DNA of 23,878 nucleotides. Origin: a virus. A model generated the notes under the pieces. It saw nothing but the letters and a program-made list of their open reading frames with translations. It was not told the origin of the DNA and did no database searches. The position numbers were made by a program, and so were the translations under genes. Location of the stretch: positions 1-23,878 of IMG/VR virus record IMGVR_UViG_3300002835_001088; one strand, written 5' to 3'. This document shows, piece by piece, positions 21,961 through 23,131 of the stretch (positions are counted from its first letter, which is position 1; each line of letters starts with the position of its first letter).

Positions 21961-22186
21961 ATACCCTTGATTTCATTGGGTTTTATCTAGCCCCTAGGAA
22001 TATATTCCCAGACTACCCTAGGATTATCTTCCGCTATTGGCTTTTATAAGGGGGACTAGGAATAAATTCCTATATCTAGTGGTTTATTCCTATTGTACCT
22101 ACTAGGAATAGTATCATGGGATAGGAAAAAAAGTGTGATACAACTAGACCGATCTATTAGCCATCTTATCCTATTGAATTTCTTTA

Positions 22187-22192: not shown

Positions 22193-22208
22193 TCCTTTCT
22201 TACCAACT

Positions 22209-22265
22209 ATCGGTAACTCATCCGGTTACACATCTGGTACCATCTGTTTTTACCTAATCTGGTAC
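22209..22265 (+). repeat. Short direct repeats ATC(C/T)GGT(T/A)AC
   Basis: ATCGGTAAC (22209-22217), ATCCGGTTAC (22220-22229), ATCTGGTAC (22232-22240) and ATCTGGTAC (22257-22265). The first three start 11 and 12 bases apart, about one helix turn, so a protein could bind them on the same DNA face. They lie between the candidate -10 and the structured RNA segment. Confidence 0.45.
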
Positions 22266-22309
22266 TACCGCCGTTTCTGCATTGTGCTAGTCTCTACCCA
22301 TAGACAAAC

Positions 22310-22663
22310 GGAAAGGACAAACGCAACGGACATAGCGCGGCACCTAGCGCAAGCCACTAGGCCAGAACGTGAGTTTTGGACACGGCAAACTGTGGGTGTA
22401 GAGCAACTAGCTGAATAGTAAGTATTGGCGCAACTATATGTTGCAGGATAATGAGAAGCTGCCAGTAATGGTGGTGGAAGCCCGAAAGCTATCCGGAAAT
22501 AGGCTTGAAGCAAGCTAGAACATGCTTGTGCTGGTGTGGTGAAATTCCATGCGCTCAGTTTATGAGCGGACAACAATGGCGGGCGATACGGATGCAACCA
22601 GTAATGGGTCCGGGTCAAATCGAACAAGCATCCGTTGCGCTTGTCCTTACCGATTGTGGTAAG
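22310..22663 (+). ncRNA. Candidate large structured RNA (unclassified), leader or independent transcript
   Basis: The segment is visibly richer in G and C than the AT-rich flank. A closing helix joins 22310-22330 to 22631-22651 (19 of 21 pairs). Inside lie hairpins at 22343-22361 (CCTAG/CTAGG), 22362-22379 (7 bp with a GUGA tetraloop), 22381-22394 (5 bp, CAAA loop), 22424-22466 (ATTGGC/GCCAGT enclosing GCAAC/GTTGC at 22430-22444), 22478-22506, 22534-22551, 22552-22568 (CGCTCA/TGAGCG) and 22588-22635 (8 bp). A last hairpin (CTTACC/GGTAAG, 22646-22663) precedes the SD of the 150-aa gene. G-U pairs in several stems would be A-C mismatches on the other strand, which supports plus-strand RNA. I see no RNase P, tmRNA or group I intron core. 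Function is unknown. Confidence 0.6.
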
Positions 22664-22678
22664 AGAAAGAGGAAACAA

Positions 22679-23131
22679 ATGAAGATCATCACTGAAGTCA
22701 AGGCTATTGAAGCCTCTATTAAGTCAATCCAGACAAGGGGTAAGAGCCTTGCGAAGGATATCCATATTGTCGCTGTCTCATGTCTTGCTCATATCGAAAA
22801 GCATGGCGACATAACGTTACTCAATCGCCTTGTCACGGCATTGCCTAGTGGTTGGCGGTCTAATGCTGTTAAGGCTTGGGGAGAAGCCTTTGGCAAGGTC
22901 AATTGGGATAATAAGGCAAAAGCCTTTGTCTATGATAAGAATAAGAAAACTGACCTTGAGGGTGCAATTGAGATTTCACCGGAGGATTTCAAGCCTGAAC
23001 CGGAGTATAAGCCGATGGACCTTGCGGCGGATATTGTCAAGCTTGTGAAAAAGGCTTCTGAGCGTGTCGGTTCTGATAATGATAATGTTCCGGCTGAACT
23101 TCTGAAGAAGCTTCAGGAATTGGTGGCATAA
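22679..23131 (+). CDS. Conserved hypothetical early phage protein, 150 aa
   Basis: I place the start at the ATG at 22679 because AGAGGAAA (22667-22674) is a proper SD and the sequence upstream is structured rather than coding; an in-frame extension to 22505 has no SD. The protein starts MKIITEVKAIEASIKSIQTR. A helical N-terminal part contains AKDIHIVAVSCLAHIEKHGD and LPSGWRSNAVKAWGEAFGKV, then a charged C-terminal tail (FKPEPEYKPMD, ELLKKLQELVA). It resembles a hypothetical protein I recall from other podoviruses, without known function. It is the first gene of the rightward arm. No membrane or catalytic motif is seen. Confidence 0.85.
   Translation: MKIITEVKAIEASIKSIQTRGKSLAKDIHIVAVSCLAHIEKHGDITLLNRLVTALPSGWRSNAVKAWGEAFGKVNWDNKAKAFVYDKNKKTDLEGAIEISPEDFKPEPEYKPMDLAADIVKLVKKASERVGSDNDNVPAELLKKLQELVA

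Follow-up and report, generated by a model that had tools for sequence, protein, structure and literature searches.

The stretch of DNA analysed here (the window; 23,878 nt, with its sequence referred to as W) carries a GC-richer segment of ~340 nt between its control region and its first rightward gene. We propose that this segment specifies a folded, non-coding leader RNA, read from the plus strand at the start of the early operon, that is coupled to the downstream PHROG_1448 gene and probably processed at its closing stem, a reading to which we assign a probability of roughly 0.5. Early genes located by the end of phage genomes serve takeover and counter-defence functions and are mostly uncharacterised, and a conserved folded RNA tied to a widespread early gene offers a handle on both.

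Genomic setting and fold of the RNA segment

The window terminase is 75% identical to those of Lentibacter phage ICBM1 and Celeribacter phage P12053L, a similarity by which this 23.9-kb uncultivated virus record is that of a Zobellviridae/Cobavirinae-like podophage. Its structural genes are read leftward, and a promoter-like TTGACT-17-TATAAT on the minus strand (21777-21749) points leftward for this structural arm. The rightward genes begin with the 150-aa PHROG_1448 protein, and the RNA lies directly 5' of this gene, as the first-pass annotation had it. The non-coding control region measures ~1.1 kb and ends at 22678. The DNA immediately upstream of the RNA (Table 1) is conserved in the relatives L002-L004, L007 and L020, as well as in L005/L073 despite the different leaders there, and is probably an early promoter/activator region. 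Two direct repeats of TCTGGTACYA within it, spaced by 25 bp (22233-22270), are conserved in the clade 5' of differing leaders and are possible activator sites.

The first-pass annotation had described the segment as a closed multi-hairpin RNA, and comparison with shuffled sequences bears out its stability. The whole element has an MFE of -128.1, whereas its shuffled versions average -106.6 (z -3.7; 0 of 100 shuffles equal it), and a second shuffle run gave z -4.2, with three neighbouring control windows at -0.1, -0.5 and -1.9. The minus strand of the whole element is weaker (z -2.7). The long-range closing stem P1 drawn in that annotation forms with 19 of 21 pairs in both the MFE and the centroid structure, interrupted by an internal mismatch of A22321 opposite C22640, and it supplies most of the stability of the element: without it, the interior (22331-22630) retains a weak plus-strand signal (z -1.7) and no minus-strand signal (z +0.8). 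The terminal hairpin competes with the outer P1 pairs, with a probability of up to 0.43. For the 5' core (Ha/Hb/Hc), the thermodynamic model prefers other pairings in W, and the possible pseudoknot (22340-22345/22394-22399) has a probability of ~0 in W's own ensemble.

Open frames of 208 aa (plus strand) and 137 aa (minus strand) overlap the RNA, as might be expected if the segment were part of a coding region or its fold a chance product of GC-richer DNA. Both frames are interrupted in L002, L003 and L007; the segment is therefore not coding, and that candidate was rejected. A chance fold is hardly credible given the stability of the element together with the covariation and the distant homologue described below. 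It is also conceivable that conservation acts on the DNA, through replication, packaging or regulator binding, since the presumed genome end is close (the ICBM1 terminal repeat stops ~200 nt before the corresponding leader) and several related contigs start or stop at ~22015-22142. We regard this as very unlikely, because G-U pairs in Hc, He, Hf and the pseudoknot favour the plus strand, an argument already made in the first-pass annotation, and because GNRA loops are present and the minus-strand interior does not fold.

Table 1. Coordinates of the RNA, its parts and its flanks in the window
Feature	Position	Strand	Evidence or remark
Upstream control DNA	22200..22309	+	TCTGGTACYA direct repeats at ~22233 and ~22258, plus TTGTGCTAGTCTCTACCCAT
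5' arm of closing stem P1, GGACAAACGCAACGG core	22310..22330	+	pair probability ~0.99; invariant in clade relatives
Ha, hairpin GCGC/GCGC with 8-nt loop GGCACCUA	22335..22350 (22335-22338/22347-22350)	+	clade-invariant
Loop strand, possible pseudoknot with 22394-22399 (GGGUGU)	22340..22345	+	comparison of relatives
Hb, GCC/GGC helix around Hc	22353..22386 (22353-22355/22384-22386)	+	invariant
Hc, GUGA-tetraloop hairpin	22362..22379	+	supported by relatives
He, hairpin GCAAGC/GCUUGU	22510..22529	+	ACGUGC/GCAUGU in L007 (A-U to U-A)
Hf, hairpin GUGUGG/CCAUGC	22534..22552	+	double changes in L007 and L020
Hg, hairpin CGCUCA/UGAGCG	22552..22568	+	unrelated yet paired stem in L007
3' arm of closing stem P1	22631..22651	+	fold; missing from L020 lineage
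Small terminal hairpin CUUACC/GGUAAG	22646..22663	+	invariant in five relatives
PHROG_1448 protein, 150 aa, first gene 3' of RNA	22679..23131	+	PHROGs E 2.7e-46

Conservation in relatives and in a distant phage

Over the region, L002, L003 and L004 are ~97% identical to W, and L007 is ~75% identical (77-79% in the alignable parts) with a middle that differs in length. One phage recovered from three samples (L016/L018/L020) carries a partial RNA, comprising the first two thirds, at ~76% identity. A 5' block of 42 nt, GGACAAACGCAACGGACAUAGCGCGGCACCYAGCGCAAGCCA, is nearly invariant. Independent lineages with the full or partial RNA number only about four.

Comparison leaves Ha, Hb, Hc, He, Hf, Hg and the terminal hairpin standing, and the relatives conserve several of these plus-strand helices, including He and Hf, through compensatory changes. 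Ha becomes GCCC/GGGC in L136 (G-C to C-G), Hb is seen in the centroid folds of L007, L020 and L136, and Hc is shortened to GCC-UAAC-GGC in L007, while Hf changes from U-A to G-C in L007 and from G-C to A-U and U-G to G-C in L020. The pseudoknot forms six of six pairs in W, L004, L007 and L020, five of six in L002 and L003, and is weaker in L136. Among in-register changes across W, L007, L020 and L136, all five double changes and four of five single changes still pair; the probability of retaining nine of ten changed pairs by chance is ~2e-4 for helices that were chosen by eye, and six further double changes in Hg are alignment-dependent. For the Ha/Hb/Hc core, too, compensatory pairing is found in independent lineages; since helices were picked by eye and the sequences are few, we take the compensatory changes as support and not as proof.

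These comparisons sort the local hairpins listed in the first-pass annotation. Relatives support the GUGA-tetraloop hairpin Hc and the two adjoining hairpins Hf and Hg as real. For the hairpin at 22343-22361 (CCUAG/CUAGG), pairing fails in both L007 and L136, and that at 22381-22394 (CACGG/CUGUG) is not kept in L007, the relatives backing Ha, Hb and the possible pseudoknot instead. The arms of the closing stem are invariant and therefore provide no covariation evidence; the sequence of the 5' arm is not conserved in L136, and the closing arm is absent from L020, so that one rigid closed unit does not describe the fold. In L020:5443-5680 (also in L016, L018, L044 and L045), the RNA ends after Hf and PHROG_1448 is absent; the end consists of a hairpin with a GUAA loop followed by UCUUUUAAUU and has a terminator-like look.

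A covariance model of the core (R1, 22315-22401), built without L136, found one strong match outside the clade, at L136:1966-2043 (39.2 bits, E 5e-6 over 547 kb), and thus recovered a distant homologue on which it had not been trained. The local fold of this match is exactly Ha, Hb and a short Hc, and 100 nt downstream of the core, in the right order, L136 is weakly matched by a He-Hf model. The 33-kb contig that includes L136 comes from a contractile-tailed phage with a sheath, a gpJ-like baseplate, a GpA terminase and DnaN. A PHROG_1448 gene (E 3.6e-36) lies 458 nt downstream of the L136 core; core and gene are therefore linked across very different phages.

Other searches define how far the RNA can be traced. 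Rfam 15 contains no match to the segment at gathering or permissive thresholds, so that by Rfam the RNA is not a known class, and a BLASTN search of 50,697 phage records with the RNA gave no match. In 397 genomes of a Roseobacter's family, a later covariance model (R3) reached at best 25.5 bits, in an apparent gene; over these and 369 genomes of a second class, its weak matches of ~24-25 bits lay in apparent genes with no PHROG_1448 neighbour. Two sequence patterns were rejected as probes: ACCGTTGCGCTTGTCC, from the 3' arm, found chance sites only beyond the known relatives, and the new sites of GGCACCYAGCGCAAGCC in viral and genome contigs were likewise due to chance.

Proposed coupling of the RNA to PHROG_1448

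PHROG_1448 is matched in 605 phage records, mostly of Pseudomonas and Acinetobacter phages, with homologues in Autographiviridae and L136. An AlphaFold2 model built from 33 sequences is confident (pLDDT 89.5) and predicts a mostly helical fold with a helix-helix-beta-hairpin stretch. A PDB search with this model returned no significant match, the weak top ones being partly winged-helix regulators; a first model from six sequences had a pLDDT of 58, and its fold matches were disregarded except for family members. A copy of the RNA core was not detectable at most other PHROG_1448 loci, and a universal GGACAA...UUGUCC closing stem before the gene was rejected, as it is present in few loci.

Phages related to that of the window likewise have non-coding DNA ahead of their first gene, though not always with the same RNA. 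L005 and L006 encode PHROG_1448 at 73-78% identity behind a largely different leader common to both, and L061, L064, L067, L073 and L046 have a third leader type with an unrelated first gene. Up to the leader, L073 (reverse strand 1450-2250) and L005:4300-5012 are ~91% identical; beyond the shared part, leader and first gene are both unrelated, as if the two had been exchanged together, as a cassette, between related phages. Judged by shuffling, the leaders of L061 (z -5.9), L067 (-6.1) and L046 (-4.8) are strongly structured and those of L005 (-0.9) and L006 (-1.1) are not.

The first-transcribed position, the predicted co-transcription with PHROG_1448, the linkage in L136 and the 20-bp stem suggest a leader that RNase III excises and whose target or partner is PHROG_1448. 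Transcription of the leader would start near 22300, and the RNA would be made soon after DNA entry as the start of the rightward early operon. RNase III could then cut the ~20-bp closing stem, as in T7 before gene 0.3, and release the folded RNA from the mRNA. The core might act with the PHROG_1448 protein, either as the site of its translation control or as its RNA partner.

Alternatively, the segment could be a trans-acting structured RNA, such as an RNA-only particle of the GOLLD/ROOL type or a decoy aimed at some host or defence factor, that is merely co-transcribed with PHROG_1448 and whose turnover reflects an arms race. Its first-transcribed position would suit such a role, as would the strong differences between leaders at this site among close relatives, the near-invariance of the 42-nt block amid diverged flanks and the survival of the 5' domain without PHROG_1448 in L020. 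We consider this possible but doubtful, given that the core adjoins PHROG_1448 in an unrelated phage too and that no terminator was found 3' of the RNA in W, so that the RNA is co-transcribed with the gene unless it is processed. Between the two roles that the first-pass annotation had offered, a leader and a trans-acting RNA, the linkage found in an unrelated phage speaks for a leader or RNP module coupled to the gene, while L016/L018/L020, which hold the 5' two thirds without the 3' arm or PHROG_1448, run counter to coupling.

A broader form of the coupled leader, which we think rather improbable, would be a phage RNA-protein module in which the early RNA and PHROG_1448 act against the host or its defences, through an RNP or RNA-controlled expression, and which travels as a mobile cassette across unrelated families, with diverged versions in phiKMV-like and Cobavirus leaders. 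If the RNA and PHROG_1448 do work together, they would constitute a testable RNP or leader switch, for which ICBM1 and phiKMV are cultured candidates.

Comparison with known systems

GOLLD and ROOL are large structured non-coding RNAs of phages and prophages that measure ~660 to >800 nt and are often located near tRNA islands (PMC12286853). The window RNA is like them a structured non-coding phage RNA that lacks an assigned function. In contrast to these larger RNAs, which are in Rfam, it spans ~340 nt and lies 5' of an early gene; there are no tRNA genes in the window, whereas GOLLD, ROOL and OLE often, though not always, have tRNA genes as neighbours. The Rfam covariance models of GOLLD, ROOL and OLE gave no match to the window RNA even at a permissive threshold, which rules out identity with any of the three and agrees with the first-pass annotation, where the RNA was not recognised as GOLLD or ROOL.

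In the T7 record, the early host promoters A1-A3 lie at 498-750 and gene 0.3 at 925, and T7 early RNA is cut by RNase III at R0.3, before gene 0.3. T7 and the window have in common a several-hundred-nt leader ahead of the first early gene, in which a double-stranded stem that could be cut precedes that gene, and by this analogy the closing stem with its 19 of 21 pairs is plausibly an RNase III substrate. The first gene is Ocr in T7 and PHROG_1448 in the window, and we know of no sequence-conserved RNA core in the T7 early leader; the T7-type position of the leader matches the window, where a promoter scan found no rightward sigma-70 consensus. At PHROG_1448 loci in general, the 200 nt 5' of the gene are unusually structured in 20 of 29 cases (mean z -2.9 versus ~-0.7 inside genes). 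In many of these loci the stretch before the gene includes a long hairpin similar to the RNase III site that precedes gene 0.3 in T7, and the structured 200 nt elsewhere may simply be RNase III-type hairpins. Both this pattern and the T7 layout from A1-A3 to R0.3 would fit an ordinary early mRNA leader with T7-like RNase III hairpins, whose fold only separates or protects mRNA. Such a leader is an unlikely account of the window RNA, as it leaves unexplained the conserved loops and a sequence-conserved core that is common with a contractile-tailed phage.

The control region of Cobaviruses (Siovirus/Veravirus) such as ICBM1 is likewise a several-hundred-nt non-coding stretch with conserved blocks before the first rightward gene. 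SIO1-type Cobaviruses are without a phage RNA polymerase, and the Cobavirus genome paper describes no ncRNA (PMC6775973). The ICBM1 leader contains CAAGCC...CCACGGCAA, also given as GAGCAAGCC...GACCACGGCAAGCU; its overall sequence is not alignable to the window, and no PHROG_1448 was found in ICBM1. The leaders of cultured Cobaviruses (L008:380-440, L010:9102-9153 and L200:511-561) have GUCACUGUGUCAACCUGAG..GAGCAAGCCCUAGC in common, and ICBM1 and SIO1 share a hairpin loop, UAGGGU(U)CACCCCGAUAAU, on stems that differ, a second conserved leader RNA element. The early leader of phiKMV (L204, 1044-1095, between annotated promoters) contains AAGCGCGGCAC, AAGCCA and GGGACACGGCAAACU in the same order, and this early region also encodes PHROG_1448, as ORF3; the match to the core is weak (19 bits) and the local predicted fold is another hairpin. 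Since chance alone should produce the bare motif about once in the DNA searched, homology to phiKMV and ICBM1 is only suggested. With respect to these systems, the window RNA represents a new family within a known kind, that of structured phage RNAs of unassigned function.
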